Of a stretch of DNA of 64,000 bases, positions 2-38,037 are shown one piece after another. The notes beneath the pieces were generated by a model, which saw nothing but the letters and a program-made list of their open reading frames with translations, had not been told where the DNA came from and did not search any database. How positions within the stretch are numbered: the first letter of the stretch is position 1; each line of letters begins with the position of its first letter. Position numbers and translations under genes: made by a program. This stretch comes from Herbaspirillum sp. WKF16 (GTDB taxonomy: Bacteria > Pseudomonadota > Gammaproteobacteria > Burkholderiales > Burkholderiaceae_D), in NCBI RefSeq assembly GCF_028993615.1, contig NZ_CP118632.1:1798001-1862000 (forward strand). The letters run 5' to 3'.

Positions 2-655
2 CCCGACCACATGATGCCTTCGGTGCCCGACAGCTCGAAGCTGGCGTTGAACAACGTCTACGAGAGCAACCCCGGCGTGCGCGCCGCGCGGCGCGATGTC
101 GAGGCGGCCGGCCAGGAACTGAAGTCGGCGCGCGCCAAGTTCTCGCCGACCCTGGCCCTCGAATGGACGCAGCAGAAGACGCGCGGCGCCGGCGGCGCCA
201 TCGACACCAGCACCAACAGCCTGCAGCTGGCGACCGACCGCCGCCTGATGCTGGTGATGACCATGAACCTGCTCAACGGCGGCAGCGACATGTATTACAC
301 CAAGCAGATCGACGCCAAGTACGTCGAGAAAAGCAATACCGCGCTGGACCTGGAACGCAAGTTGCGTGAGCAGATCGAGATCAACTACCGCACGCTGGGC
401 GCGGTCAGGAAACGCATGGACATTTCGCGCCAGGCCTACCTGACCAACGCCAATGTCGCCGACGTGTTCCTGGAACAGTTGTCGACCGGCAGCAAGCAGT
501 TGCTGGACGTGCTGGATGCCTATCAACAGGCTTACCAGGCGCGCATGGACTTCGCGGCCCTGCTGTTCCAGCAGGCCGATATCAGTTACCAGATCCTGCG
601 CAATACCGGCCGGGCGTCGTCGCTGACGACGCCGCCGGCGCAGGCATCCAAATAG
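2..655 (+). CDS. TolC-family outer membrane efflux protein, C-terminal part
   Basis: The reading frame is open to the window edge, so the N-terminal half and signal peptide are missing. The 218 visible residues look like the second helical/strand repeat of the outer membrane efflux protein family: an amphipathic helix rich in Ala, Gln and Arg, the strand-like stretch MTMNLLNGG, then helices ending in YQILRNTG. TolC proteins form the outer-membrane channel of type I secretion systems. The next genes encode the adaptor, exporter and cargo, so this is the likely SiiC/TolC-equivalent of the locus. It ends 14 bp before the next gene and is probably co-transcribed with it. The family call is firm; the exact partner is inferred from position. 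Confidence 0.88.
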   Translation, partial: PDHMMPSVPDSSKLALNNVYESNPGVRAARRDVEAAGQELKSARAKFSPTLALEWTQQKTRGAGGAIDTSTNSLQLATDRRLMLVMTMNLLNGGSDMYYTKQIDAKYVEKSNTALDLERKLREQIEINYRTLGAVRKRMDISRQAYLTNANVADVFLEQLSTGSKQLLDVLDAYQQAYQARMDFAALLFQQADISYQILRNTGRASSLTTPPAQASK

Positions 656-669
656 TTCGGGGGAAGGGC

Positions 670-1446
670 ATGGAGGGAGGAAAGGAACAGAATTTCTGGC
701 CAGGCTTCGTGGACGCGCTGTCCAACGTGGTGCTGGTCATGATCTTCGTGGTCGTGGTGTTCGTCGTCACGCTGTTCTACTACTCGCAGAAGCTGGCCCA
801 GATGAAGGTCAGCAAGCTGGTGTCGCAAAGCCAGACGCAGGCGGTGCAGGGCGTGGCCAAGAGCAAGCAGAACGATCTCATCAAGACGCCCGACGGCGCC
901 GACGTCAACGTCTCCGACAGCAAGGCCGAGCGCGACCGCGCCGAGGAAGTGGTGCAGTTGAAGCGTGAAGTGGCCGACCTGAAAGCCAAGCTGGCCGCGG
1001 CGCCGCTGCAGTCGGACGCCGGCAGCATGCGCAGCGCGGCGGCGCCGTCCAGCCCGAACGCGATCCAGGTCAAGACCGATCCGACCAAGAGCGAAATCGC
1101 GCCGGGCGTGAAGATCGACGCCAACGACAAGGCCGTGGTGCTCAACTTCGACGCCGATTCCACGCAGTTGTCGGGCGACGGCACCAAGGCGCTGGATCGC
1201 AGCATCGGCGACTGGGTCAAGCGCGTCAAATCCAGCCAGGGCAAGATCGTGGTGACCGGCGTCATCAGCAGCGGCGGCTACAGCGACAGTCGCCGTCGCG
1301 CCTACTACCGGACCGTGGCCGTGCGCAATTACCTGATCGACGCCGGCGTCGAAAAGGAACGCGTGGTGAGCCGCGTGGCCACCGCCGAGAACGGCGATGA
1401 AAACGCCTCGCGCGTGATCGTCCAATACCAGGCAGGTGCAAAGTGA
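670..1446 (+). CDS. MotB/SiiA-like inner-membrane, peptidoglycan-binding stator protein
   Basis: 258 residues with a purine-rich ribosome site (GGGGAAGGG) just upstream. Residues 9-38 give a short Trp/Phe motif, an Asp at 15 and then one very hydrophobic helix, which is the MotB layout in which the Asp carries the translocated ion. Residues ~90-115 are a charged coiled coil. Residues ~150-255 resemble an OmpA/MotB peptidoglycan-binding fold, with the R-x-x-AVRNYL element near 222-230. In Salmonella SPI-4, SiiA is a single-span, cell-wall-binding protein of this kind that works with MotA-like SiiB beside a giant-adhesin exporter. The neighbours here make the same role likely. TolR/ExbD-type or generic MotB are alternatives, but the long periplasmic domain and context favour SiiA. 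Confidence 0.75.
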   Translation: MEGGKEQNFWPGFVDALSNVVLVMIFVVVVFVVTLFYYSQKLAQMKVSKLVSQSQTQAVQGVAKSKQNDLIKTPDGADVNVSDSKAERDRAEEVVQLKREVADLKAKLAAAPLQSDAGSMRSAAAPSSPNAIQVKTDPTKSEIAPGVKIDANDKAVVLNFDADSTQLSGDGTKALDRSIGDWVKRVKSSQGKIVVTGVISSGGYSDSRRRAYYRTVAVRNYLIDAGVEKERVVSRVATAENGDENASRVIVQYQAGAK

Positions 1447-1448
1447 CC

Positions 1449-2807
1449 ATGTCCATCAAGCCCGGCGCCGCCCACGGGATCGCATCCCCGGGCAAGGGCT
1501 TCATGCGCCGGCTGGCGCCGCGGCTGGACCGCCGCCTGGGCGAATTGCGCACCATGCCGCGCCCGCGCCTGGCGGTGCTGGCCTGCGCCGCGCTGCTGCT
1601 GTTGCTGCTGGTGTGGTCGGTGTTCGCGCCGATCGACATGGTGGTGCGCGGCGCCGGGCGCATCGTTTCCTCCGAACACAACCAGGTGATCCAGCATCTG
1701 GAAGGCGGCATCGTCTCTTCCATCCTGGTGCGCGAAGGCGCGGCGGTGAAGAAGGGCCAGACGCTGATCTCGATTTCCGACGTGCGCGCCAACGCCGACC
1801 TGGGCGAGGGCCGCGTCAAGATCCTCGGCCTGCGCGCCAAGATCGCCCGTCTCGCGGCCGAGGCATCGGGTTCACCTGGGTTGCAGATGCCGGCCGATCT
1901 CGACCGCGCCGACCCGGCGGTGCAAAGCGAGCAGGCGGCCTTCGCCGCGCGCAGCGCCAAGGTGACGCAGGAACTGTCGGTGCTGCGCGAGCAATCGGCG
2001 CAGCGCCAGGCCGAGCTGGGCGAGGCGGTCAGCCGCCAGAAAAGCCTGGCCAGCGAACTCGACCTGGCGCAGCGCCAGTACAAGCTGATCCACGGCATGC
2101 TGGAGCGCAACGCCGCCTCCCAGCTGGAAGACATCCAGGCCCAGGCGCGCACCCAGGACGCGCAGAGCAAGCTGTCGGCCACCAATGCCATGATCCCGCG
2201 CCTGAACGCGGCCATCGCCGAGTCGCAGGCCAAGATGGGCGAGGCCTCCTCGCGCTTCCGTTCCGACGCCCGCACCGAGCTGACCGCGGCTGAAACCGAA
2301 CTGGCGCGCCTGCAGGAAGAAATCAAGTCGCGCAACGACCGCGTCTCGCGCTCGGAAGTGAAGGCGCCGATGGACGGCGTGGTCAACCGCGTGATGATCA
2401 ATACCATCGGCGGCGTGGTCAAGCCGGGCGACCCCATCATCGAGATGACGCCCAGCGATGACAAGCTGGTGATCGAAGCGAAGATTTCGCCGTCCGACCG
2501 CGCCCAGCTGATGACCGGCGCGCGCGCCCGGGTCAAGGTCTCGGCCTACGACTACGGCGTCTACGGCGCCATGGAAGGCGTGGTCACCGAGGTGTCGGCC
2601 GACACCGTGCCCGAAGAGCGCGGCGAACGCTTCTACCGCGTCAAGATCGAGGTCACCCGCGGCGCCGGCGAGCTCCAGCGCAACCTGGCGCTGATGCCCG
2701 GCATGACCGCCACGGCCGACGTGATCGTCGGCCGGCGCACCGTCTGGCAGTACCTGATGTCGCCGTTGTCGCGCTTCTCGCAAAGCGCCATGCGGGAGCC
2801 GCGATGA
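1449..2807 (+). CDS. HlyD-family type I secretion periplasmic adaptor
   Basis: 452 residues from ATG at 1449. A GTG at 1443 overlapping the previous stop is also possible. An N-terminal cytoplasmic segment (1-~35) precedes one transmembrane helix (~38-58). Next come the first half of a lipoyl/barrel-sandwich domain (QHLEGGIVSSILVREGAAV), long alpha-hairpin coiled coils (~100-290), the second lipoyl half (SEVKAPMDGVVNRV) and a beta-barrel ending near 440. HlyD-type adaptors bridge the inner-membrane ABC exporter and the TolC channel. Position between the TolC, stator and ABC genes supports the SiiD-equivalent role. The stop is followed by a 121-bp gap before the next gene, the largest break inside the locus up to that point. 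Confidence 0.92.
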   Translation: MSIKPGAAHGIASPGKGFMRRLAPRLDRRLGELRTMPRPRLAVLACAALLLLLLVWSVFAPIDMVVRGAGRIVSSEHNQVIQHLEGGIVSSILVREGAAVKKGQTLISISDVRANADLGEGRVKILGLRAKIARLAAEASGSPGLQMPADLDRADPAVQSEQAAFAARSAKVTQELSVLREQSAQRQAELGEAVSRQKSLASELDLAQRQYKLIHGMLERNAASQLEDIQAQARTQDAQSKLSATNAMIPRLNAAIAESQAKMGEASSRFRSDARTELTAAETELARLQEEIKSRNDRVSRSEVKAPMDGVVNRVMINTIGGVVKPGDPIIEMTPSDDKLVIEAKISPSDRAQLMTGARARVKVSAYDYGVYGAMEGVVTEVSADTVPEERGERFYRVKIEVTRGAGELQRNLALMPGMTATADVIVGRRTVWQYLMSPLSRFSQSAMREPR

Positions 2808-2928
2808 GCGCCGCCCGCGCCGCCGTTTCCCATGCCCGCCCGGCCGCTGACGCGGCGCGGGCGAAGCCCGTTTCAGTTTCACGTTTTGCCAGCATCCATC
2901 GCGTTCATTTCTCCGGAACTTCGCACGT

Positions 2929-4596
2929 ATGAAAAACCTTCGTCAATTCTATGCACTTGCAGCCATCCCGACGCTACTGCTGCTGTTGGGTGGATTCCTG
3001 TTCCGGGACTTCGTCCTGCACGCGATTCACATCAACCCGTTCCTGAACCTGTTCATCATTTCGGTGGCGCTGTTCGGCGTGGCGCTGATCGGCTACAACC
3101 TGTGGCGCGTGAACTGGGAGCATGACAAGCTGATGCAGTTCTATGCGCGCACCAAGGCCGGCGAGTCGATGGACGACCTGGTCAAGGCGCCCGAGTTCGC
3201 CGGCACCGAGATCGGCCAGGTCCTGGTCAGCGTGGCCAGCACCAAGGGCCGCCTGACCTCGCGTATCGAACAGGAGACCATTGAAAGCTCGCTGAGCGAC
3301 CTGCGCGCCCACCTCGAGGCCAAGACCGAGTTCCCGCAGTTCCTGACCGGCTTCATGATCGCGCTGGGTCTCCTGGGCACCTTTATCGGCCTGCTGGAAA
3401 CCCTGGTCGGCACCGCCGCGCTGATCGACGGTTTCGGCAAGGCAGCCGGCGGCGGCGACATGGACGCCTCCTTCATGCGCCTGGTGGCCGACCTGCAAAA
3501 GCCGTTGGCCTCGATGGGCACCGCCTTCTCGGCCTCGATGTTCGGCCTGATCGGTTCGCTCGCCCTGGGCCTGACGCTGACCCCGCTGCGCGGCGCCGGC
3601 AAGAAGCTGGTGGCGCGCGCGCGCGAGTGCATCAGCGACATGGTGCAGCACGTGGTGCACGACATGTCCGGCCCGGCGGCGACGCAACGCCAGGGCGTGT
3701 CGGAAACCTTCCTGGCCGAGTTCCTGCAGGATCTGATGGTGCTGCAGCGCGAGTCCATCATGGCCGCGCGCAACAGTTCGGAAGCCTCGCTGCAGGCCGG
3801 CATCAAGCTGGAAGGCCTGAACGAGCGCTTGAACAATATCGTCCAGCTGTTTACGGACAGCATGGAAGAATCGCGCAACCTGCGCCAGCTGGTCGCCTTC
3901 GGCCCGCGCATGCATGAGACCGCGCAGCTGACGCTGGAAGAGATCCGCAACGTCGGCCAGATCATCAACACCAAGATCACCTCGGCGCGCGACCTGTCCG
4001 ACAGCCTGTCGTCGCTGGAAGAGCGCCTCTCCATCAACGGCGACATCGCCAACCGCACCTTCGAAGTGCTGCCGCAGATCGTCTCCAACATCCAGGCCGG
4101 CCAGTCGGCGCTGTCGGTGTCGCTGACCTCGCTGCAGGCGCAGCAGACCGAAATCTCCAACATGAACGAGAAGAATGCGCAGAACATCGCGCAGCTGCCG
4201 GCCCTGTTGAACCAGATCTCGATCCGCCTGGCCGACGAGATGGGCGCCATCCAGTACCAGGGCGAAATCCAGTCCACCGTGGCGGCCCGCCTGAACGAGC
4301 TGGGCAGCACCATCGGCGAGAACTCCAGCAACATGGCGCGCGACGCCTTGTCGGCGCGCCAGCTGCAGATCGACCTGGCCAAGCACATGGCGATGCAGAA
4401 CGACCGCGTCAAGAACCTGGGCGCGATCCCGCAATCGCTGACCTCGATCACCGAGGCGCTGATGCGCCAGAACATCAACTGGCAGACCGTCATCGAAGAA
4501 ATGCGCACCGGCCGCCAGACCATGGTCAAGGACCTGCGCCTGGAACTGCGCGAAGCCATCCGCGAGATGTCCGCCAACCGCGGGGTGCAGCCCTGA
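2929..4596 (+). CDS. MotA/TolQ/ExbB-like (SiiB-like) channel protein with long cytoplasmic tail
   Basis: 555 residues. Hydrophobic helices lie near 7-28, 41-60, 138-160 and 200-225. The last two, with GFMIALGLLGTFIGLLETL and the MGTAFSASMFGLIGSLAL element, are the core signature of MotA/TolQ/ExbB proton-channel proteins. From ~245 to the end there is no membrane segment, only a predicted all-helical, heptad-rich tail of about 310 residues. That tail is far longer than in TolQ or ExbB and recalls SiiB and the Zorya protein ZorA. Together with the MotB-like gene upstream it should form an inner-membrane ion-driven complex. No clear Shine-Dalgarno precedes the ATG. Channel family is clear; function in secretion or adhesin release is inferred from SPI-4. 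Confidence 0.8.
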   Translation: MKNLRQFYALAAIPTLLLLLGGFLFRDFVLHAIHINPFLNLFIISVALFGVALIGYNLWRVNWEHDKLMQFYARTKAGESMDDLVKAPEFAGTEIGQVLVSVASTKGRLTSRIEQETIESSLSDLRAHLEAKTEFPQFLTGFMIALGLLGTFIGLLETLVGTAALIDGFGKAAGGGDMDASFMRLVADLQKPLASMGTAFSASMFGLIGSLALGLTLTPLRGAGKKLVARARECISDMVQHVVHDMSGPAATQRQGVSETFLAEFLQDLMVLQRESIMAARNSSEASLQAGIKLEGLNERLNNIVQLFTDSMEESRNLRQLVAFGPRMHETAQLTLEEIRNVGQIINTKITSARDLSDSLSSLEERLSINGDIANRTFEVLPQIVSNIQAGQSALSVSLTSLQAQQTEISNMNEKNAQNIAQLPALLNQISIRLADEMGAIQYQGEIQSTVAARLNELGSTIGENSSNMARDALSARQLQIDLAKHMAMQNDRVKNLGAIPQSLTSITEALMRQNINWQTVIEEMRTGRQTMVKDLRLELREAIREMSANRGVQP

Positions 4597-4637
4597 GCGC
4601 CGCCTGAGGCGGCGCGGCGCAACCGGAGCATCCGACC

Positions 4638-6341
4638 ATGAACGAAAGCGAACAGGTCCACATCGATCAGCCGCAAGTCCTCCAGGACCTGCGCAAGGAT
4701 CCAACTTACCTGTCGCTGCTGCGCGCCTACGGCAGCCGCTTCGTCGAGATCGTCGTCGCAGGCGTCCTGGTCAACTTCCTGGGCCTGCTCATGCCGCTGT
4801 ATTCGCGGCTGGTCTACGACAAGGTGATCGGCAACCATATTCCCGAGACCCTGTGGGCGCTGACCCTGGGCATGCTGCTGTTCATTGCGCTGGAGCTGGT
4901 GCTGCGCATCATCCGCGTGTACTACACGGAGCAGTTGGCGGGGCGCCTGGACACCGAGTTCGACGAGGTGTCGGCGCGACGCCTGCTGTCTTCCCGCGTC
5001 AACGCGCCGGTCGGCGTGGTGCTGGCGCGCTATCGCGACCTCTCCGCCGCGCGCGACCTGATGTCGTCCAATTACATGCTGCTGCTGGTGGACCTGCCGT
5101 TCCTGTTGCTGTATCTGGTGGTGCTGGGCCTGGTCGCCGGCCATCTGGTCTGGGTGCTGCTGGTGGGCGGCGCCATGCTGGTGGGCGCGCAGTTGCTGTT
5201 CAAGGTGCCGTCGCAGGACTATGCCAATGCCGCCATGAAAGCCGGCACCGGCAAGGTCGACAAGCTGGCCAGCATCGTCTACGGCATGGAAACGCTGAAG
5301 ACCACGCCGCTGCAGCACCGCCTGATGCGCGCCTTCCTGTCGGACGCGACGGACAACGCCGTGGCGCAGGCCAAGAGCCGTTTCTGGACCAACGCAGGCT
5401 ACGCGGTTTCCTCGGTCGGCTATACCTTCATCTCGGTGGCCACGCTGGTGGTCGGCGTCTATCTGGTGGAAGACAACGCACTGACGGTGGGCGCGCTGAT
5501 CGCCGGTTCGCTGCTGATCAGCCGGGCCACCACCGTGCTGTCGTCGCTGGCGGCGCTGCTGGGCCGCATCGAAATGTTCCGCCGCGCGCGCGCCGAGTTC
5601 GACCAGTTGTTCGGCGAGGACGAGCAGCAGGTCACGGCCGATGTGCTGCGCCAGGAAATGCGCGGCCTGATCCAGGTCGGCAACCTGATGCTGCACTTGG
5701 ACAAGAAGGAAACCCCCACGCTCAAGCACGTCTCGCTGACCATCCAGCCGGGCGAGAAGGTCGGCATCGTCGGCCGTTCCGGTTCCGGCAAGTCGACCCT
5801 GCTGCGCGCGCTGGCCGGCCTGCACAAGCCGGAAGAAGGGCATGTCCTGGTCGACGGCGTGGCCGTGAGCGCCTATGCCGCGGAGGTGCGCATGCGCAAC
5901 ATCGGCTTCAAGCCGCAGGAGCCGTTTGTCTTCGACGGCACGCTGGCCGCCAACATCTTCATCGGCGACCGCGTGCCCGGGCAGGTGTACGAGGCGGCGC
6001 TGGGCGTGTCCGGGCTGGACGAGCTGATCGCGCGCGGCGAGCTGCGCCTGGACCAGATGCTCAAGGCGCCCGGCAACCTTTCCGGCGGCCAGCGCCAGAT
6101 GGTGGCGCTGGCGCGCGTGGTGGCGTCGGTGCCGCGCATCCTGCTGCTCGATGAGCCGACGACGGGCATCGACCAGCAGACCGAGGCGCGCATCATCGAA
6201 CGCATGATCGCCTTCTCGGCGGGACGCACGCTGGTGGTAGCCACGCACAGCCCGGCGCTGCTGCGCCACGTGGACCGCATCATCGTCATCGACGGCGGCA
6301 GCATCGTGGCCGACGGGCCGCGCGAGCAGATCCTGCAATGA
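4638..6341 (+). CDS. Type I secretion ABC exporter (permease-ATPase fusion)
   Basis: 567 residues. About five to six membrane helices fill residues 30-310, and a nucleotide-binding domain follows from ~345. It has Walker A GRSGSGKS (~378), the Q-loop GFKPQEP, the signature LSGGQRQM (~480), Walker B ILLLDEPT (~500) and the H-loop ATHS (~534). It is short because there is no N-terminal peptidase C39 or C39-like domain: the membrane region starts after only ~35 residues. Leader cleavage by this protein is therefore excluded, as expected for cargo with a C-terminal signal. A GGAG ribosome site lies about 10 nt before the ATG. It is the SiiF-equivalent of this locus and is followed at 89 bp by the cargo gene. 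Confidence 0.93.
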   Translation: MNESEQVHIDQPQVLQDLRKDPTYLSLLRAYGSRFVEIVVAGVLVNFLGLLMPLYSRLVYDKVIGNHIPETLWALTLGMLLFIALELVLRIIRVYYTEQLAGRLDTEFDEVSARRLLSSRVNAPVGVVLARYRDLSAARDLMSSNYMLLLVDLPFLLLYLVVLGLVAGHLVWVLLVGGAMLVGAQLLFKVPSQDYANAAMKAGTGKVDKLASIVYGMETLKTTPLQHRLMRAFLSDATDNAVAQAKSRFWTNAGYAVSSVGYTFISVATLVVGVYLVEDNALTVGALIAGSLLISRATTVLSSLAALLGRIEMFRRARAEFDQLFGEDEQQVTADVLRQEMRGLIQVGNLMLHLDKKETPTLKHVSLTIQPGEKVGIVGRSGSGKSTLLRALAGLHKPEEGHVLVDGVAVSAYAAEVRMRNIGFKPQEPFVFDGTLAANIFIGDRVPGQVYEAALGVSGLDELIARGELRLDQMLKAPGNLSGGQRQMVALARVVASVPRILLLDEPTTGIDQQTEARIIERMIAFSAGRTLVVATHSPALLRHVDRIIVIDGGSIVADGPREQILQ

Positions 6342-6430
6342 TGCGCTAGTATTTTCTTGCTGACCGGCAAGCTCGTCATTGCGACTTGATGAAACAACAA
6401 TTTTGAACTGACCTTCGACTGCGAGAAAAC

Positions 6431-9400
6431 ATGGCAACCGCAAGCTCATCACAAGCGAACTCCGCGGAAAAAGTCACCGGCCCGGTACGGGTGGTGATGC
6501 CCGACCAGAACGGCAGCTTCCAGCTCAACGCGCCGCGCGGCGCCGTGCAGCGCGTCCAGGTGGTGGACGTGGACATGGTGCTGCACATGGCCGACGGCAC
6601 CAAGGTGGTGCTGGCCGGCGGCGCCATGGAAGCGATGGACGACAAGTCCAAGGTCAAGTTCTCCGACACCAGCGCCGACACCGGCAAGCTGCTCGACAGC
6701 GTGGGCAAGATCGCGCTGGCGCCCAACGACCAGTCGCGCATACTCAATTCCGATCCCATCGCCTCGCCCGACCGCGTGGCCACCGACGCCTCGGTGCAGA
6801 GCCCGCAGCACGTCAGCACCGACCGCAACGCCGCCAGCGTGGGCAGCGACGGCATCAGCCAGCTGGCCAAGATCATCAGCGAAAACTCGGGCTCGCTGAC
6901 CACCAACGGCGTGCAGACCCTGTCGGTGCCGACCCAACCCACCGCCGATGCCTCGACCACCAGCGCGGCCTCCGCGCTGGTCGCCTCGCAAAGCACCAGC
7001 AGCAATGACGCGCCGGTGCGGCCGGTGGAAGTGCAAGCGCCGCCGGAACGCCCGGGCGTCATCCCGCCCACCGTGGTGATCGATCCTTCGGCGCCGACGC
7101 AGGCCGTCAAGCTGGTCAACCTGGCCACCGTCACCCAGGTCGGCACCACGCTCTACGGCAGCGCCGGCATCCCGACTTCCTCCACCGACGCGTCGCTGCC
7201 GCAGCAGTTCAGCACCCAGGTGATCAACGCCGGCAACGACGTCACCACGATCTACGCCGCCGGCAACAATAACGGCACCTTCGTGAAGGTGTTCAACGTC
7301 AACATCACCGGCACAGGCAATGTGCTGTCGGTGGTGATCTCGGGCGTGCCTTCCAACATGACCGTGCTCAACGGCACCGACCTGGGCGGCGGGAAATACT
7401 CGATCACCGTGGCCTCAGGCCAGAAGGACTTCAACATCCAGTTGCAGTACCAGACGGTGGAAGCGGATTCATCCTCCCCGGTGCACCAGGCCTTCGACCT
7501 GACGTTCACCACCGTCGTGGCGACCTCCAACGGCCAGCTCACCCTCAACGATTCGCGCCACGTGGCCGTCAAGGACGCCGGCGCCTACGGCGACCTGAAC
7601 TACCTCGACCCCGCCACCGGCGACGCGGTGCTGGTGCTGCCGGCGCAAGGCGCGCCCCATGAGGTGCATGCCGACAACAACGCCGGCACCACCATCTACG
7701 GCAGCAACGCCAACGACCTGCTGTATGGCGGCACCGGTAACGACACCCTTTACGGCGGCACCGGCAATACCTTCTTCGAAGGCGGCGCCGGCGCCGACCG
7801 CCTGATCGGCGGCGTCAACAGCACCGGCACCAACGTCAACACCGCCAGCTATGCCAACTCCGGCGCGGGCGTGACCGTCGACCTGGTCAACGGCACCGGC
7901 GTGGGCGGCGACGCCCAGGGCGATACGCTGCTCAACATCCAGAACCTGAAGGGCAGCGCCTACAGCGACACCTTCATCGCCAATTCGGCGGTCAACCGCC
8001 TGGACGGCGGCTCGGGCGGCTCGGACACGGTGTCCTACCAGTATTCCGGCGCCGCCGTCACCGTCAACCTGATCACCGGCACCGGCACCGGCGGCGATGC
8101 CCAGGGCGACACCTATACCCATATCCAGAACGCCATCGGCTCGGCTTACGACGATGTCTTCATCGCCAGCACCGACGCCAATCGCTTCGAAGGCGGCGGC
8201 GGCTCCAATACGGTGTCCTACGCCAGCTCCGGCGCCGGCGTGAGCGTCAACCTGCAGACCGGCGTCGGCAGCGGCGGCTCGGCCGCCGGCGACACCTACG
8301 CGAACATCCAGAACGTGGTCGGTTCGGCCTATGACGATACCTTTGTCGGCAGCCTCGCGGCCAACAGCTTCGACGGCGGCAGCGGCGGCAACGACACCGT
8401 GAGCTATGCCGGATCGACTTCCGGCGTCTCGATCAACTTCGTGTCCGGCCGCGGCACCGGCGGCTACGCCGAAGGCGACACCTACAACCACATCCAGAAC
8501 GCCATCGGCTCGGCCTACGACGACGTCTTCATCGCCGGCGTCGACAGCAAGAACTTCAACGGCGGCAGCGGCGGTTCCGATACCGTCAACTACGGCGCAT
8601 CGACCGGCGCGGTCACGGTGAACATGATCACCATGAGCGGCAGCGGCGGCTATGCCCAGAACAACACCTACACCAACATCCAGAACATCGTCGGCAGCTC
8701 GTACTCCGACACCTTCATCGCCAGCGCCGCAGCCAATAATTTCAACGGCGGCCTGGGCGGCTCGGACACCGTCAGCTACGCCTTCTCGAACGCGGCGGTA
8801 ACGGTCGACCTGTTCCACGGCACCGGCAGCGGCGGCTATGCCCAGGGCGACGTGCTGGCGCATATCCAGAACGCCATCGGCAGCGACTACGACGACATCT
8901 TCATCGCCAGCGCCGACGTCAATAATTTCAGCGGCGGCCTGGGTTCCAACACGGTCAGCTATTTCTATTCGACCGGCGGCGTCACCGTCGACCTGACCAA
9001 CACCATCGGCACCGGCACCGGCGGCTTCTATGCCGCAGGCGATTCGTTCACCAACATCCAGAACCTCATCGGCAGCGTCTACGACGACACCTTCGTGGCC
9101 AGCGCCGACGCCAACAGCCTCGACGGCGGCGGCGGTTCGCTGCACAACCGCGTGAGCTACGCGGCCTCGACTGCCGGCGTGACGGTGGACCTGAACTACA
9201 CCAACGGCACCGGCACCTTCGGCGGCTACGCCCAGGGCGACAAGCTCGCCAATATTCAGGACCTGACCGGCGGCGCCGGCGACGACACCTTCGTCGCCAG
9301 CCTGGCGGAAAACAATTTCGAGGGCGGGGCGGGCTCCAACCGCGTGAGCTATGCCGCCTCCAATGCGGCGGTGACGGTCGACCTGGTGCTGGGCGTGGGC

Positions 9401-12400
9401 ACCGGCGGCTACGCCAACAACGACACCTACGCCAACATCCAGAACGTCACCGGATCCAATTTCGACGACCTGTTCATCGCCAGCCTGGCAGCCAACAAGT
9501 TCGACGGCGGCCTGGGCAACAACACCGTCAGCTACGCCAAGGCCGGCGACGGCAACGGCGTGACCGTCGACCTGTTCAACGGCGTGGGCAGCAACGGCTT
9601 CGCCGCAGGCGACACCTACGCGAATATCCAGAACGTGATCGGCACCGCCTATGACGATACGTTCATTGCCGACGCGAATCACAACACCTTCACCGGCGCA
9701 CAAGGTTCGGACACGGTCAGCTACCGGTATTCGACCGCAGGCGTCACGGTCAATCTCGTGACCGGCCTGGGCACCGGCGGCTTTGCCGACGGCGACGTCT
9801 ATTCCGGCATCGAAAACGTGGTCGGATCCGCTTCCGACGACCTGATCGTGGCCAGCAGCGACGCCAACGTCATCGATGGCGGCGTCAGCACCGCAAGTTC
9901 CCACAATCGCGTCAGCTACGCCAGTTCCGACGCCGCCGTCACGGTCGACCTGACCTATACCGACGGCACCGGAACCTCGGGCGGATATGCTGCCGGCGAC
10001 AAGTTGTCCAATATCCAGGATCTGACGGGCAGCATCTACGACGACACCTTCGTGGCCAGCCAGGCCGCGAACAATTTCGACGGCGGCGGCGGCTCTCTGC
10101 ACAATCGCGTCAGCTACGCGCATTCCACGGTCGGCGAAACCGTCGACCTGGTCAACGGCGTCGGCAGCGGCGGCGCCGGCAGCTTCGCCGCGGGCGACAC
10201 CTACGTCAACATCCAGGACGTGACCGGCGGTTCCGGGGACGACCTGTTCATCGCCAACAGCGCAGCCAACAGGTTGGACGGCGGCGCCAGCACCGCAAGC
10301 TCGCACAACCGCGTGAGCTACCAGTATTCGACGGTCGATGAAACCATCGACCTGGTCACCGGGCAGGGCAGCGGCGGCGCGGGCAGCCTGGCCAACGGCG
10401 ACACCTACGCCAACATCCAGGACGTCACCGGCGGCGCCGGCAACGACACCTTCGTCGCCAGTACGGCGGCCAACAACTTCGAAGGCGGAGGCGGCACGCA
10501 TAACCGCGTGAGCTATGCCAATTCGTCGGTTGCCGAGACGGTGGACCTGATCGCCGGCACCGGCAGCGGCACTTATGCCGCCGGCGACACCTATGCCAAC
10601 ATCCAGGACGTGACCGGGGGCGGCGGCGACGACACCTTCATCGCCAGCGCCGCAGCCAACAACTTCGAAGGCGGAGGCGGCGCGCACAACCGCGTGAGCT
10701 ACGCCAGCTCGACCGTGGCCGAAACGGTCAACCTGTTCACCGGCCAGGGCAGCGGCGGCGCGGGCAGCCTGGCCAACGGCGACACCTACGCCAATATCCA
10801 GGACGTCACCGGCGGCCTGGCCGACGACCTGTTCATCGCCAACGCGGCGGCGAACCGGTTCGACGGCGGCATCAGCACCGCGACTTCGCACAACCGCGTG
10901 AGCTACCTCAACTCGAACGTCGATGAAACCGTCAACCTGGTCACCGGCCAGGGCAGCGGCGGCACCGGCAGCCTGGCCAACGGCGACACCTACGTCAACA
11001 TCCAGGACGTGACCGGAGGCGGGGGCAACGACACCTTCTACGGCAATACGGCGGCCAACAATTTCGAGGGCGGAGGCGGCACGCACAACCGGGTGAACTA
11101 CAGCACGTCGACCGTGGCCGAGACGATCAACCTGTTCACCGGGCAGGGCAGCGGCGGCGTGGGCAGCCTGGCCAACGGCGACACCTACGCCAACATCCAG
11201 GATGCCACCGGCGGCCTGGCCGACGACCTGTTCGTGGCCAGCGCCGCGGCCAACTTCTTCGACGGCGGCGCCAGCACGGCGGCTTCGCACAATCGCGTGA
11301 GCTACCTCAACTCGACCGTCGATGAAACCATCGACCTGGTCACCGGCCAGGGCAGCGGCGGCGCGGGCAGCCTGGCCAACGGCGACACCTACGCCAACAT
11401 CCAGGACGTCACCGGCGGCGCCGGCAACGACACCTTCGTCGCCAGCACGGCGGCCAACAACTTCGAAGGCGGAGGCGGCACGCATAACCGCGTGAGCTAT
11501 GCCAATTCGTCGGTTGCCGAGACGGTGGACCTGATCGCCGGCACCGGCAGCGGCACTTATGCCGCCGGCGACACCTATGCCAACATCCAGGACGTGACCG
11601 GGGGCGGCGGCGACGACACCTTCATCGCCAGCGCCGCAGCCAACAACTTCGAAGGCGGCGGCGGCGCGCACAACCGCGTGAGCTACGCCAGCTCGACCGT
11701 GGCCGAAACGGTCAACCTGTTCACCGGCCAGGGCAGCGGCGGCGCGGGCAGCCTGGCCAACGGCGACACCTACGCCAATATCCAGGACGTCACCGGCGGC
11801 CTGGCCGACGACCTGTTCATCGCCAACGCGGCGGCGAACCGGTTCGACGGCGGCGTCAGCACCGCGGCTTCGCACAACCGCGTGAGCTACCTCAACTCGA
11901 ACGTCGATGAAACCGTCAACCTGGTCACCGGCCAGGGCAGCGGCGGCACCGGCAGCCTGGCCAACGGCGACACCTACGTCAACATCCAGGACGTGACCGG
12001 AGGCGGGGGCAACGACACCTTCTACGGCAATACGGCGGCCAACAATTTCGAGGGCGGAGGCGGCACGCACAACCGGGTGAACTACAGCACGTCGACCGTG
12101 GCCGAGACGATCAACCTGTTCACCGGGCAGGGCAGCGGCGGCGTGGGCAGCCTGGCCAACGGCGACACCTACGCCAACATCCAGGATGCCACCGGCGGCT
12201 TGGCCGACGACCTGTTCGTGGCCAGCGCCGCGGCCAACTTCTTCGACGGCGGCGCCAGCACCGCAAGCTCGCACAACCGCGTGAGCTACATCAACTCGAC
12301 CGTCGATGAAACCATCAACCTGCTGAATGGCACCGGCAGCGGCGGCGCGGGCAGCCTGGCCAACGGCGACACCTACGCCAACATCCAGGACGTGACCGGC

Positions 12401-14470
12401 GGCAGCGGCAACGACACCATCGTCGCCAACGCCGCCGCCAACAGCCTCGATGGCGGCCTGGGGTCGAATACGGTCAGCTACGCCGGCTCAAGCAGCAGCA
12501 ACAACTCCACCGGCGTCACGGTCAACCTGTCCACCGGCGTGGGCAGCGGCAACTACGCCCAGGGCGATACCTACGCCAACATCCAGAACGTGATCGGCAG
12601 CGCCTTCGCCGACACCCTGACCGGCGCCAACTACGATGCCGTCAACAACGTCGGCGTGGTCTCGGTGCTGACCGGCGGCGCCGGCGCCGACCTGCTGACG
12701 GCGATTGCCGCCAACCGCGCCTCTACCTATGCCAGCTACGCGGGTTCGGGCTCGGTGACGATCAACCTGCAGGCGGGAACCGGCAGCGGCAACGATGCCC
12801 AGGGCGACGTGCTGGTCAACATCGACAACGTGATCGGCGGCGGCGGCGACGATGTGTTCTATGCCAGCAGCTTCGCCAACAAGCTCGATGGCGGAGCCGG
12901 TTCGGATACCGTCAACTATTCGTTGTCCACCAGCAGCAACGGCACCACCGGCGTGACGGTCAACCTGTCCACCGGCGTGGGCAGCGGCAACTACGCCCAA
13001 GGCGATACCTACGCCAACATCGAGAACGCGGTCGGCAGCGCCTACAACGACACGCTGACCGGCTTTGCCACGGTGGGAACCCAATCGGTACTGGAGGGCG
13101 GCGCCGGCGCGGACACCATCACGGCCATCGCGGCCAACCGCGCCAGCACCTATGCGTCCTATGCCGGCTCGGCGCTCGGCGTGACGATCGACCTGAAGAA
13201 CGGCAGCGGCACGGGCGGCGACGCGCAGGGCGATATTCTGGTCAACATCGACAATGTCATCGGCAGTACGCACGACGACCTCTTCAAGGCCAGTACGCAA
13301 GCCAACATCTTCACCGGAAACGGCGGCACCGATACGGTGAGCTACGAGTACGACACCGGCGGGGTGACGGTCGACCTCACCAACACGCTGGCCGCCAGCG
13401 GAACCTATGCCCTGGGCGACAAGTTCAACGGCATCTCGAACCTCATCGGCGGATCCGGCAACGATACCTTCTACGCCAGCAACGTGGCCAACAGCTTCGA
13501 GGGCGGCGCCGGCTCCAACACCGTCAACTACGCGCGTTCCGGCACCGCCGCGGTGACCGTCGACCTGTACAACCACAACGGCAGCGGCGGCTATGCCGCC
13601 AACGACCACTACGCCAACATCCAGAACGTGGTGGGTAGCGCCGGCAACGACACCTTCTATGCAGACGGCAACGCCAACACCTTCACCGGCGGCGGCAACA
13701 TAGGCGGCGGCACCGGCGCCGGCACCGGCGACACCGTCAGCTACTACTACGCCAACAGCGGCTCATCCAGCGCGGCCATCGTCGCCAACCTGGCCACCGG
13801 CCAGGGCAGCGGCGTGGGCAGCGACGCCAATGGCGACAAGTACATCGGCATTTCCAACCTGGAAGGCAGCGCCTACGTCGACAATACCCTCACCGGCGAC
13901 GCCAACGGCAACATCCTGACGGTGCGCGGCACCGGCACCACCAATACCCTCAGCGGCGGCGGGGCGGGCGCCGGCCAGACCGACGTGTTCAACGTGCTGG
14001 AAGGCGCGCACAACACCGTCACGGTCGGTGCGGGGACCAACATCATCAACGTCAGCGCCGGTTCCCACAGCACGGCGGGCGCGCAGAGCGATATCGTCAA
14101 CAAGGATACCGGCACCACCAACATCGTCTCCATCAACGGCGTGGCGGGCACCACCACCTTGCACTTCGACGATCTCGGCAACTCGCTCTCGCTGAGCAAT
14201 TTCTCCAGCAAGGTCAGCGGCATCACGACGCTGGACGTGACCACGGGCGCGTCAACCAACATCGTGATCACCGCCGACGACGTGATCAAGATGGGCATCG
14301 CCAGCGGCGCCACGTCGCACCTGCTGACGGTCAAGATGAACGCCTCGGAGAGCTTGCAGATCATGGCCAACGGTTCGGACCATTACGTCTACTTCCCCGG
14401 CACGACCGACTACGCCTTCTACAACGCCAGCAACCAGGAAATCGCGCGCATCCACCTCGTGACCGCCTGA
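6431..14470 (+). CDS. Giant secreted repeat protein (RTX-derived, SiiE/BapA-like cargo)
   Basis: 2,679 residues, no signal peptide. Residues 1-~110 form a small N-terminal domain with a DVDMVLHMADGTKVVL beta-hairpin resembling the retention region of large type I secreted adhesins. A Ser/Thr/Ala-rich linker follows, then a beta-rich domain (~230-400) and three or four genuine RTX nonapeptides at ~416-458 (GGTGNDTLY type). About 31 imperfect repeats of 59-84 residues then run to ~2,490. Each contains VSYA-x-S, V-T-V-D-L, GDTYANIQN and a GSAYDDTF calcium-binding-like turn, and ends in N-x-F-D-G-G. The last ~190 residues are non-repetitive and end in a short hydrophobic stretch, as in type I signals. 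Probable surface adhesin or matrix protein exported by the upstream genes. No enzymatic domain is visible. Confidence 0.85.
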   Translation: MATASSSQANSAEKVTGPVRVVMPDQNGSFQLNAPRGAVQRVQVVDVDMVLHMADGTKVVLAGGAMEAMDDKSKVKFSDTSADTGKLLDSVGKIALAPNDQSRILNSDPIASPDRVATDASVQSPQHVSTDRNAASVGSDGISQLAKIISENSGSLTTNGVQTLSVPTQPTADASTTSAASALVASQSTSSNDAPVRPVEVQAPPERPGVIPPTVVIDPSAPTQAVKLVNLATVTQVGTTLYGSAGIPTSSTDASLPQQFSTQVINAGNDVTTIYAAGNNNGTFVKVFNVNITGTGNVLSVVISGVPSNMTVLNGTDLGGGKYSITVASGQKDFNIQLQYQTVEADSSSPVHQAFDLTFTTVVATSNGQLTLNDSRHVAVKDAGAYGDLNYLDPATGDAVLVLPAQGAPHEVHADNNAGTTIYGSNANDLLYGGTGNDTLYGGTGNTFFEGGAGADRLIGGVNSTGTNVNTASYANSGAGVTVDLVNGTGVGGDAQGDTLLNIQNLKGSAYSDTFIANSAVNRLDGGSGGSDTVSYQYSGAAVTVNLITGTGTGGDAQGDTYTHIQNAIGSAYDDVFIASTDANRFEGGGGSNTVSYASSGAGVSVNLQTGVGSGGSAAGDTYANIQNVVGSAYDDTFVGSLAANSFDGGSGGNDTVSYAGSTSGVSINFVSGRGTGGYAEGDTYNHIQNAIGSAYDDVFIAGVDSKNFNGGSGGSDTVNYGASTGAVTVNMITMSGSGGYAQNNTYTNIQNIVGSSYSDTFIASAAANNFNGGLGGSDTVSYAFSNAAVTVDLFHGTGSGGYAQGDVLAHIQNAIGSDYDDIFIASADVNNFSGGLGSNTVSYFYSTGGVTVDLTNTIGTGTGGFYAAGDSFTNIQNLIGSVYDDTFVASADANSLDGGGGSLHNRVSYAASTAGVTVDLNYTNGTGTFGGYAQGDKLANIQDLTGGAGDDTFVASLAENNFEGGAGSNRVSYAASNAAVTVDLVLGVGTGGYANNDTYANIQNVTGSNFDDLFIASLAANKFDGGLGNNTVSYAKAGDGNGVTVDLFNGVGSNGFAAGDTYANIQNVIGTAYDDTFIADANHNTFTGAQGSDTVSYRYSTAGVTVNLVTGLGTGGFADGDVYSGIENVVGSASDDLIVASSDANVIDGGVSTASSHNRVSYASSDAAVTVDLTYTDGTGTSGGYAAGDKLSNIQDLTGSIYDDTFVASQAANNFDGGGGSLHNRVSYAHSTVGETVDLVNGVGSGGAGSFAAGDTYVNIQDVTGGSGDDLFIANSAANRLDGGASTASSHNRVSYQYSTVDETIDLVTGQGSGGAGSLANGDTYANIQDVTGGAGNDTFVASTAANNFEGGGGTHNRVSYANSSVAETVDLIAGTGSGTYAAGDTYANIQDVTGGGGDDTFIASAAANNFEGGGGAHNRVSYASSTVAETVNLFTGQGSGGAGSLANGDTYANIQDVTGGLADDLFIANAAANRFDGGISTATSHNRVSYLNSNVDETVNLVTGQGSGGTGSLANGDTYVNIQDVTGGGGNDTFYGNTAANNFEGGGGTHNRVNYSTSTVAETINLFTGQGSGGVGSLANGDTYANIQDATGGLADDLFVASAAANFFDGGASTAASHNRVSYLNSTVDETIDLVTGQGSGGAGSLANGDTYANIQDVTGGAGNDTFVASTAANNFEGGGGTHNRVSYANSSVAETVDLIAGTGSGTYAAGDTYANIQDVTGGGGDDTFIASAAANNFEGGGGAHNRVSYASSTVAETVNLFTGQGSGGAGSLANGDTYANIQDVTGGLADDLFIANAAANRFDGGVSTAASHNRVSYLNSNVDETVNLVTGQGSGGTGSLANGDTYVNIQDVTGGGGNDTFYGNTAANNFEGGGGTHNRVNYSTSTVAETINLFTGQGSGGVGSLANGDTYANIQDATGGLADDLFVASAAANFFDGGASTASSHNRVSYINSTVDETINLLNGTGSGGAGSLANGDTYANIQDVTGGSGNDTIVANAAANSLDGGLGSNTVSYAGSSSSNNSTGVTVNLSTGVGSGNYAQGDTYANIQNVIGSAFADTLTGANYDAVNNVGVVSVLTGGAGADLLTAIAANRASTYASYAGSGSVTINLQAGTGSGNDAQGDVLVNIDNVIGGGGDDVFYASSFANKLDGGAGSDTVNYSLSTSSNGTTGVTVNLSTGVGSGNYAQGDTYANIENAVGSAYNDTLTGFATVGTQSVLEGGAGADTITAIAANRASTYASYAGSALGVTIDLKNGSGTGGDAQGDILVNIDNVIGSTHDDLFKASTQANIFTGNGGTDTVSYEYDTGGVTVDLTNTLAASGTYALGDKFNGISNLIGGSGNDTFYASNVANSFEGGAGSNTVNYARSGTAAVTVDLYNHNGSGGYAANDHYANIQNVVGSAGNDTFYADGNANTFTGGGNIGGGTGAGTGDTVSYYYANSGSSSAAIVANLATGQGSGVGSDANGDKYIGISNLEGSAYVDNTLTGDANGNILTVRGTGTTNTLSGGGAGAGQTDVFNVLEGAHNTVTVGAGTNIINVSAGSHSTAGAQSDIVNKDTGTTNIVSINGVAGTTTLHFDDLGNSLSLSNFSSKVSGITTLDVTTGASTNIVITADDVIKMGIASGATSHLLTVKMNASESLQIMANGSDHYVYFPGTTDYAFYNASNQEIARIHLVTA
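7820..13900 (+). repeat. Array of about 31 tandem protein repeats (~62-68 aa each)
   Basis: The repeated unit runs from one VSY motif to the next. Units 1-12 are diverged. Units 13-24 share a variant with VDETV/VAETV in place of GVTV and a GGAGSLANGDTY insertion. Units 25 and 27 carry longer insertions ending TAIAANRAST. Each unit keeps a single GG-x-G-x-DT half-turn, so the array looks like an amplified RTX spacer module rather than a classical nonapeptide run. Confidence 0.9.
10313..12280 (+). repeat. 984-bp intragenic tandem duplication (five repeat units)
   Basis: Copy 1 is 10313-11296 and copy 2 is 11297-12280, each covering units of 65, 62, 68, 65 and 68 residues. Away from the two junctions I count six mismatches over about 940 bp, so identity exceeds 99%. 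This is much closer than any other pair of units in the gene and marks a recent duplication or gene-conversion event. The period is a whole number of codons, so the frame is kept. Confidence 0.93.
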
Positions 14471-36309: not shown

Positions 36310-38037
36310 CTACAAAAATTTTCCTTTGCTGACTGTCATTGTCAGCATGTTGACAATGGTGAATCCCATGGCGGTAAGCAGCATGGTAGCCGGAATCAGC
36401 AAGCCCGCCATTTCACCCGCGACGAATACGGCGACAAACTTGCTGGCGGTAAAGTAAGTGAACACGCAAAGATACGGCAACGTACGCGACCCGCTATAGA
36501 TGTTGGACAGCAGCAATCCAGCCACGGCGAGGATCCAGCAGCATATGGTCCAGGTCACCGGGGCCTGGTACGAAAAGTTCGCGCTTCCCGCCAGCGTCAG
36601 TGCGCCGAGTGCCAGCCAGGTCACGCGCCATTTGAGCAAATGCTTGAATTCGGGATCCAGTTGCTGGTAAATACGGTCTCCGCCAGCGACCACCAGCAGT
36701 GCCCAAGGGAGGAACATTGGGCCAAAGCAGGCGGAGTCGCCGGAAAAGAGCAGCATCATGGCGATGAAGATACCCAGGGCCAGCATCATGTGCAGCCCCT
36801 CGAAGAAGGCGGCGCAGGCGAAGATGGCGTACAGGCCCAGCACCGACAAGGCCAGGCAAACCGGCAGCATCCATGCCGAGGGTTGTGGCGTAAGCAGGAT
36901 CGGCAAGCTCAGCAACGCCGCCAGGATGATCCATCCTAACTGTCCCTTGTGGGTTTCGCGCAGGGCGATCAGCCGTGGGGCGATTTGCGGTTTGCCGAAC
37001 ACCAGAAGCACCGCGACGCCCAGGCACAGCAGTTGACCCAGGATCCATATTCCCGGGTAGTAGCGGCCTTTGCCGACGGCGGCCAGTAGAGGCACGTCCG
37101 CGCCGGTATGACTGGCCGACGCCATCAGCATGAGGGAAAGCAGCACCCCGGCGAAGCACGACACCCCCAGATGGATCGTCTGCAGCCGGCGTGCGGCGAG
37201 TTTTTCTTCCCACCACGCGACGACGTCCTGATTGAGCTTGTAGGCGATGGTTTCCGGAACGTTCCAGCGCAGGTGCTGGATCAGTTGCCCCATCTCGTCG
37301 CTGAATTTTCGTTGGTGCAGCCGCAATGGAAACCGTGGATGGGTGGCCGCCAGCAGCGCCTGCGCGGCAGGCGTGCGCATGGCGAGCAGATGCTGGTACA
37401 TGCGCTCGGCCCGGATTCTGGAAATGATCTGGCCGGCCAGGCCAACGCGGGCGCGATGCAGATGGCTGGCATCCTCTTCCCAGCGATAGAACTGGGCCAG
37501 TCCTTCGCGCAGGTCGGTGTCGGCGTCGGCCTGGGCGCAGTAGTTGGCGGCCTCGATCTCGAAGGCGCCGGCGAAATCCAGGTTGTGAAAGTCTTCCGTG
37601 CCGGTGAAGGCCTCGATCACCTTCGGCAGGCTGTAGTGCAGGCTCTTGTTATGAGCGCGGACATAGGCGCCGAGAAAATCATGCCAGCTCTGTTCCGGTG
37701 TTCGCGAGGCGACGAAGGATGCCGTCGGCGCGGCTGGCTCGGCCACGGGGGCGATCGTCCGCGCCGCGACCGTCGGCTCGATTGCCGGCGCGACCAGGGT
37801 TTCGGGCGCGGCCGGCGTCGCTGTATCAGGGGTGTCGGCATCTTGCTGGGCGATGGCGTGTTGCACCAGGGCCAGCGCCGTGTCATAGGCTTGCCGCAAT
37901 TTCTGGAAGCCATCGGCATCGTCCTCGGGACGCGTTGCCTTCAGCCGGCTGGCATAGGCGCGCTTGACGGCGCGTGTGTCGTCGGTGGGAGCGATATCCA
38001 GCGTGTCCCAGACCCACTTGTTCCATTCGGCGTACAT
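36310..38037 (-). CDS. DjlB/DjlC-like membrane protein with degenerate J domain
   Basis: 575 residues from ATG at 38037, which overlaps the stop of the hscC-like gene by one base (TGATG). Residues ~5-60 have J-domain spacing (DTRAVKRAYASRLKATRPED then FQKLRQAYDTAL), but the invariant HPD tripeptide is replaced by Arg-Pro-Glu. An Ala/Pro linker and a soluble helical region (115-300) follow. The C-terminal half holds about nine hydrophobic segments. E. coli DjlB and DjlC are membrane J-like partners of HscC, and the gene pair is reproduced here. Partner assignment is inferred from adjacency and domain order. Confidence 0.75.
   Translation of the reverse strand: MYAEWNKWVWDTLDIAPTDDTRAVKRAYASRLKATRPEDDADGFQKLRQAYDTALALVQHAIAQQDADTPDTATPAAPETLVAPAIEPTVAARTIAPVAEPAAPTASFVASRTPEQSWHDFLGAYVRAHNKSLHYSLPKVIEAFTGTEDFHNLDFAGAFEIEAANYCAQADADTDLREGLAQFYRWEEDASHLHRARVGLAGQIISRIRAERMYQHLLAMRTPAAQALLAATHPRFPLRLHQRKFSDEMGQLIQHLRWNVPETIAYKLNQDVVAWWEEKLAARRLQTIHLGVSCFAGVLLSLMLMASASHTGADVPLLAAVGKGRYYPGIWILGQLLCLGVAVLLVFGKPQIAPRLIALRETHKGQLGWIILAALLSLPILLTPQPSAWMLPVCLALSVLGLYAIFACAAFFEGLHMMLALGIFIAMMLLFSGDSACFGPMFLPWALLVVAGGDRIYQQLDPEFKHLLKWRVTWLALGALTLAGSANFSYQAPVTWTICCWILAVAGLLLSNIYSGSRTLPYLCVFTYFTASKFVAVFVAGEMAGLLIPATMLLTAMGFTIVNMLTMTVSKGKFL

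Follow-up and report, generated by a model that had tools for sequence, protein, structure and literature searches.

Among described type I secretion systems, SiiABCDEF of Salmonella SPI-4 is the closest to the locus reported here. SiiAB is listed as the motor for type I secretion in the available text of a recent paper (PMC12204202), and its mechanism is described as unclear in the accessible part of a 2025 review (PMC12607715). According to the same partial sources, secretion persists upon loss of siiA/siiB while invasion is lowered, SiiF binds SiiB, and CCCP lowers the retention of SiiE (PMC12607715, PMC6272769). Deletions near the SiiE amino terminus likewise alter retention (PMC6272769, available part), and SiiA binds peptidoglycan via R162 and R167 (PMC12607715, available part). 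Among the papers listed in our searches of open-licence literature, none describes the gene block presented below or treats the relatives of SiiAB as a broad class, and SiiA does not occur in the available text of two overviews, a survey of MotAB homologues from 2025 and a review of 5:2 motors from 2022.

The window, i.e. the whole stretch of 64,000 nucleotides from the soil-type bacterium Herbaspirillum sp. WKF16 that was analysed, begins with one gene run on the plus strand (positions 2–14470) in the order TolC, MotB/SiiA-like, HlyD, MotA/SiiB-like, ABC exporter and RTX cargo (Table 1). The intergenic gaps, taken from the gene coordinates, are 14, −4, 121, 41 and 89 bases in that order. The six plus-strand frames of exporter, stator and cargo recognized in the initial annotation are present and domain scans name each of them, with one correction: the TolC gene starts upstream of the window, which for this reason holds just the last 217 residues of a frame of 560 amino acids (L002:13973–15655). 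The domain matches of the two stator proteins are weak, 24.3 bits to OmpA for the MotB-like protein (cut-off 27.2) and 17.0 bits to MotA_ExbB (PF01618) for the MotA-like protein (cut-off 22.9). Upstream of the TolC gene, the opposite strand carries a gene that by eye looks like htpG. Elsewhere in the window (36310–39746), a small Hsp70-like gene and a gene with a J-domain-like start are found between parC- and parE-like genes, as judged from first residues only.

Table 1. Features of the motor-linked type I secretion locus (positions refer to the window).
Feature	Position	Strand	Basis or remark
TolC-family outer membrane channel, 3' part (last 217 aa)	2–655	+	OEP/TolC Pfam, 3e-15
MotB/SiiA-like subunit, 258 aa: one TM helix with Asp15, linker, domain of peptidoglycan-binding type	670–1446	+	
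Asp15 codon, putative ion site	712–714	+	Counterpart of the Asp in SiiA WPxFVD by alignment; ion role deduced from the family
MotB-like periplasmic domain, residues 148–254	1111–1431	+	SiiA 6QVP-like
R209 and R214 codons	1294–1296 and 1309–1311	+	Align with SiiA R162 and R167
HlyD-type periplasmic adaptor, 454 aa	1443–2807	+	TIGR01843, 2e-109
MotA/SiiB-like subunit, 555 aa: TM core ~7–217, long helical C-terminal tail ~259–551	2929–4596	+	Tail is a low-confidence prediction
Type I secretion ABC exporter, 567 aa, without N-terminal C39-like domain	4638–6341	+	TIGR03375, 7e-138
Giant RTX-repeat cargo, 2,679 aa	6431–14470	+	RTX repeats by Pfam
Cargo N-terminal domain	6431–6730	+	Common to the system's relatives and, by profile, to the SPI-4 cargo N-terminus
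Cargo repeat region, 31 anchors, spacing 61–80 aa	7934–13858	+	
Tandem array inside the repeat region	10039–12456	+	
Cargo C-terminal region, likely secretion signal	14078–14467	+	Similar ends in relatives by eye; role inferred from type I secretion generally

The locus shares with SPI-4 a SiiA-type subunit of the same fold that carries both arginines, a SiiB-type partner, dedicated TolC, HlyD and ABC genes, and a giant cargo with a related amino-terminal domain. The stator genes are interleaved with the exporter genes, as the initial annotation had noted, in an order unlike the siiA-B-C-D-E-F of SPI-4. The description given there, of a SiiAB-like motor within a type I secretion locus, is upheld by the profiles, by the functional residues in common, by structural similarity and by the neighbouring genes; the cargo, however, is RTX-like, whereas that of SPI-4 consists of Ig-like repeats. 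The ABC proteins differ as well. That of SPI-4 has an N-terminal C39-like domain according to the available part of the review (PMC12607715), whereas the Herbaspirillum protein lacks one and aligns to TIGR03375 only from profile position 139 onward.

Two scans for promoters and terminators gave no clear excess along the regions scanned (promoter-like sites 1 vs 0.5 and 3 vs 1.4 expected; terminators 0 vs 1.0 and 12 vs 11.8 expected). The SPI-4 operon is preceded by an ops/RfaH element. Such an element was rejected for the present operon, since 17.5 kb of L002 contained no exact match, and 62 sites with one or two mismatches compared with 54.7 expected.

The kinship of the two stator proteins was analysed by profile–profile comparison with hhalign. 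The MotA-like family matched SiiB at 98.7%, the MotA proteins of a third, enterobacterial type of locus at 99.8%, those of a second Herbaspirillum type at 99.7% and those of stand-alone MotA–MotB pairs at 100%; the MotB-like family matched SiiA at 97.6%, stand-alone MotB at 99.0% and the enterobacterial third type at 96.4%. Column-shuffle controls (20 each) did not exceed 3.0% for SiiB and 0.8% for SiiA. Lower values were obtained for the MotA-like family with ZorA (63.6%, one row), flagellar MotA (8.9%, two rows) and TolQ/ExbB (69.6% with six rows, 91.0% with a deeper profile of 35), and for the MotB-like family with Pal (62.6%, one row), flagellar MotB (0.8%, two rows) and TolR/ExbD (1.7% with two rows, 9.8% with 30). 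Four MotA rows without clear class (L180, L186, L188, L218) and near copies had been excluded from the MotA set. The SPI-4 reference genomes were assigned by gene order, by R162/R167 and by gene lengths, including those of SiiC and SiiD.

Trees were calculated from hand-picked sets of 75 rows, 48 rows (MotA AU test) and 43 rows (MotB). For the MotA core, whose deep branches are long, a clade with TolQ/ExbB is compatible with the AU test (p 0.16) and a clade with SiiB is mildly disfavoured (p 0.048); for MotB, the clade with SiiA has p 0.331. The expected clustering of the stators with SiiAB rather than TolQR/ExbBD is thus borne out by the profiles, in which SiiAB rank far above, and not by the AU tests of MotA. 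By sequence comparison, the motor subunits are kin to SiiA and SiiB; because of the long branches deep in the MotA tree and the AU tests, we claim kinship and not a single clade with SPI-4.

Identity with TolQR/ExbBD, flagellar MotAB or Zorya was considered and rejected. TolQR/ExbBD share the same superfamily core, but PF01618 stays below cut-off, the MotB side reaches just the values given above, and the genome has separate TolQ/ExbB-like genes; the MotA clade with TolQ/ExbB still has its p of 0.16. Identity with flagellar MotAB was discarded on the low hhalign values for both subunits, each relating to a control profile of just two rows. Zorya ZorAB shows weak PADLOC matches (E ~4e-5 for both subunits) and likewise combines a long tail in the cytoplasm with a partner that binds peptidoglycan, as described in the available part of PMC11890865. 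The ZorA and ZorB models nevertheless fall far below cut-off, the profile value to the single ZorA compared is 63.6%, and the neighbours here are exporter genes. Stand-alone MotA–MotB pairs (PRK09039-type; some Alphaproteobacteria have them next to an efp-like gene) agree in the MotA core and in the WPxFVD helix of MotB; they differ in that no exporter or cargo lies near them in the mapped loci and in an OmpA-like carboxy terminus without the S-D-S-x-R motif (0/20).

The residues by which SiiA acts could be traced in the MotB-like protein. R162 and R167 sit within SFSDSLRLGYERG in the two SiiA rows checked, and hhalign pairs this segment, SFSDSLRLGYERG, with YSDSRRRAYYRT of the window protein, R209 and R214 falling on the two arginines. 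Both are kept in 70 of 71 MotB rows (69 distinct sequences, 19 from Herbaspirillum), the remaining row having a gap. Asp15, to which attention had been drawn from the start, is real: it occurs in 71/71 rows after filtering with WPx[FYW][VT]D, a filter by which a single row was lost (L203, the C-terminal half of a gene broken into two frames), and in 7/7 rows of an unfiltered alignment. The pattern [ST][DE]x(1,2)Rxx[YF]xR was found in 64/71 exporter-linked MotB proteins and 5/7 SiiA proteins, in 0/20 stand-alone proteins and in 0/7 of the enterobacterial third type.

The AlphaFold model of the MotB-like protein has a mean pLDDT of 74.7, with ten-residue means of 77–96 from residue 151 on. In a PDB search with this model, chains of SiiA (6QVP) rank 2, 3, 6, 13 and 21 by E-value. 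Among the 50 matches listed, three of these chains have the top target-normalised TM-scores (0.81, 0.81 and 0.80), the two others reach 0.75 and 0.70, and no other match exceeds 0.68; the first by E-value, 6JFW, is another peptidoglycan-binding domain with a TM-score of 0.57. Profile, modelled structure and arginines together make the SiiA likeness of the protein firm, its binding to peptidoglycan being putative. In the MotA-like protein, G147, L148, G150–F152, G154–L156, P192, M196, F200–S203, G206 and S210 of TM3/TM4 are invariant in 38 rows. Its carboxy-terminal 300 residues are modelled with low confidence as long helices, a shape likewise reported for ZorA tails (PMC11890865, available part).

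The cargo contains no Cys and no Trp, and 33% of its residues are Asp, Asn or Gly. Pfam identified ten RTX stretches; the RTX nonapeptide was the only family found, and Ig-like (BIg) repeats were absent from the matches. A profile of the amino-terminal domain recognized 82 of 89 proteins adjoining MotA, a count that is partly circular because the profile was built from 16 of the same sequences; an earlier pattern had performed poorly (7/89). In profile–profile comparison the domain matched the amino terminus of the SPI-4 cargo at 92.3% over 85 columns (shuffles at most 0.9%) and that of the enterobacterial third-type cargo at 95.0%. A match below cut-off was obtained with the NCBIfam prefix domain of BapA as well (20 bits, cut-off 35), and since BapA is not known to use a motor for its export, the domain may not be motor-specific. 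No match to the LapG protease (PF06035) was detected in the genome, while one control genome did match; release by a LapA/LapG-type proteolytic route thus looks absent and was rejected.

Within the genus, all 24 other Herbaspirillum loci mapped have the identical order TolC–MotB–HlyD–MotA–ABC–cargo as far as the contigs reach (that of L093 stops within the ABC gene), which indicates that the arrangement is not a matter of chance. MotA, at 69% identity or more, is found in 26 of 34 genomes of the genus including that of the window, and HlyD in the same 26; the remaining eight have neither, and two of these genomes are 63% (G027) and 87% (G017) complete. Across the Herbaspirillum loci, MotA varies least among the six proteins (mean pairwise distance 0.166), followed by HlyD (0.202), ABC (0.231), TolC (0.312), MotB (0.338) and the first 900 residues of the cargo (0.343). 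In 15 close loci, the pairs of which are not independent, cargo distance correlates with that of ABC (r 0.94), MotA (0.79), HlyD (0.70), MotB (0.69) and TolC (0.62). The cargo diverges more in step with the ABC gene than with MotA, so it is possible that the motor does not itself read the cargo.

Four loci (L054, L055, L057, L059) have the same operon with a MotA 91–95% identical and a shorter cargo (2,253–2,299 aa) about 52% identical to that of the window, possibly reflecting cargo exchange with co-divergence of the ABC gene. A second motor-linked exporter type, ABC (~700–800 aa)–HlyD–MotA–giant cargo, was seen in other Herbaspirillum genomes (L076–L080); in one of these a MotB-like protein is encoded downstream of the cargo (L077:14017–15096).

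GTDB species genomes were scanned with our own MotA alignment, which yielded at least 373 relatives, of which the best 80 were kept. The order TolC–MotB–HlyD–MotA is present in 54 of them, 46 outside Herbaspirillum, a fraction that is not a prevalence because these 80 are the best of at least 373 and were picked with our own alignment. The conservation of the stator genes beside the exporter, foreseen in the initial annotation, therefore holds both in the genus and among these best relatives. The rest comprise ten loci with partial exporter genes, 13 MotA–MotB pairs alone (two on one contig, L240 and L241) and three MotA genes alone. Within the fetched stretch, an exporter-type ABC gene accompanies 32 of the 54 four-gene loci and an RTX-type frame 44. 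Loci with exporter genes include Methylobacillus, Methylovorus, Limnohabitans, Ideonella, Pseudomonas sp. IPO3778, Magnetospirillum fulvum, Rhodospirillales, Geobacter and Desulfuromonas. Outside Herbaspirillum the ABC gene, where seen, lies mostly 3' of the cargo; it precedes TolC or HlyD in L205, L207, L222 and L239. Five of the 80 loci have no MotB match beside HlyD (L177, L179, L204, L226, L239); L179 and L204 start where their contigs end, and L177 does have a MotB frame, overlapping TolC.

In Limnohabitans and its kin (L191, L193, L195, L206, L210, L227) a TolC–ABC–HlyD set without motor genes of its own directly precedes the motor-linked block. Beside two motor-linked exporters, genes with similar starts (HQNFPGQF; L138:2144–3388, L152:5040–6329) were read by eye as glycosyltransferases, so that glycosylation of these cargos is possible. 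Stand-alone MotA–MotB genes of the same MotA family, without exporter, lie near an efp-like gene (by eye) in other classes of the phylum (L142, L144, L145).

An even draw over classes gave a MotA-related match in 43 of 274 genomes, the own one included; the blast map showed the four-gene block in none of the regions from 22 of the other 42 (L081–L091, L096–L106). In an even draw over phyla (398 genomes including the own one), a near full-length MotB match was confined to G060, G587 and the own genome. Both draws point to a system that is widely spread but sparse. Among Enterobacteriaceae, 17 of 392 genomes matched, and all 16 regions fetched from 14 of these genomes have HlyD- and TolC-like genes, L290 being degraded. 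Two orders occur there, the SPI-4-type MotB–MotA–TolC–HlyD–cargo and the third order MotA–TolC–MotB–HlyD–cargo. The latter (L283–L289), followed by one or two large cargos of 1,352–1,936 aa where complete, resembles the Herbaspirillum locus in its motor pair, exporter and cargo with a related amino terminus, and differs in gene order and in a MotB without the S-D-S-x-R motif (0/7). Degraded SPI-4-type loci were seen in L292, where the SiiB-like gene is in two frames, and in L290, where HlyD and ABC remnants are left.

From the parts of the locus, and following the Salmonella model, we infer that it probably encodes a type I secretion system equipped with an ion-driven motor of SiiAB type, which would decide whether a giant RTX surface protein is held or released. 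TolC, HlyD and the ABC protein would export the cargo, carboxy terminus first, so that its amino-terminal domain would exit last and could remain in the conduit. MotA, probably in five copies, would surround MotB, probably in two, which would be anchored to peptidoglycan via R209 and R214. Ion flow at Asp15 would then set whether the cargo stays at the surface or is released, a control taken over from the Salmonella work, and the long MotA tail may reach the exporter or the cargo on the inner side.

It is unlikely that the motor instead powers export, ion flow joining ATP in driving a very long unfolded chain across the envelope. Most cargos are long, the longest complete one having 3,265 aa (L070), MotA shows the least divergence among the six proteins, and a 5:2 motor serves type 9 secretion (PMC11890865, available part); yet a complete Methylobacillus cargo has just 969 aa (L192), and secretion in Salmonella continues without SiiA and SiiB (PMC12607715, available part). 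An arrangement without rotation, in which the MotA–MotB pair is a peptidoglycan-bound scaffold or a gated ion leak serving to position or sense the exporter, appears distinctly improbable to us: the invariant ion-site Asp and TM3/TM4 motifs in the aligned rows are expected of a working motor, even though the peptidoglycan-type arginines are strongly conserved and sensing of the cell state is one option in the SiiAB model (PMC6272769, available part).

The available text on Flavobacterium describes a 5:2 motor, GldLM, that moves the surface adhesin SprB (PMC9389320), but nothing in our data points to movement, and a motor that moves or turns the surface fibre is very improbable here. We give almost no credence to the MotAB-like genes being unrelated passengers of the operon. 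The 13 stand-alone relatives without nearby exporter among the best 80 of at least 373 (two on one contig) would fit such an origin; against it speak the co-occurrence of MotA and HlyD without exception in 34 genomes (26 with both, eight with neither), the recurrence of the interleaved order in the 46 loci outside Herbaspirillum among the same best 80, and the separation of exporter-linked from stand-alone MotB proteins in the tree (support 93/90). Control of retention by an ion-driven motor remains the reading that we prefer.

As relatives with the same core gene order are found in several bacterial groups, the system of Salmonella would seem to be a single branch of a wider class that has been little described. 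A wider reading is doubtful: motor-coupled type I secretion would be a separate, ancient class of machines in free-living proteobacteria of beta, alpha, gamma and delta type, its 5:2 rotary motor pulling, holding or turning giant RTX fibres, with SPI-4 as a late branch with Ig-type cargo. The relatives, with their varied cargos, hosts and gene orders, provide a working definition of the system by the WPG-x-V-D helix, the S-D-S-x-R-x-x-Y-x-R motif and the cargo N-terminal domain, and they offer models other than Salmonella for studying how a rotary motor contributes to type I export.
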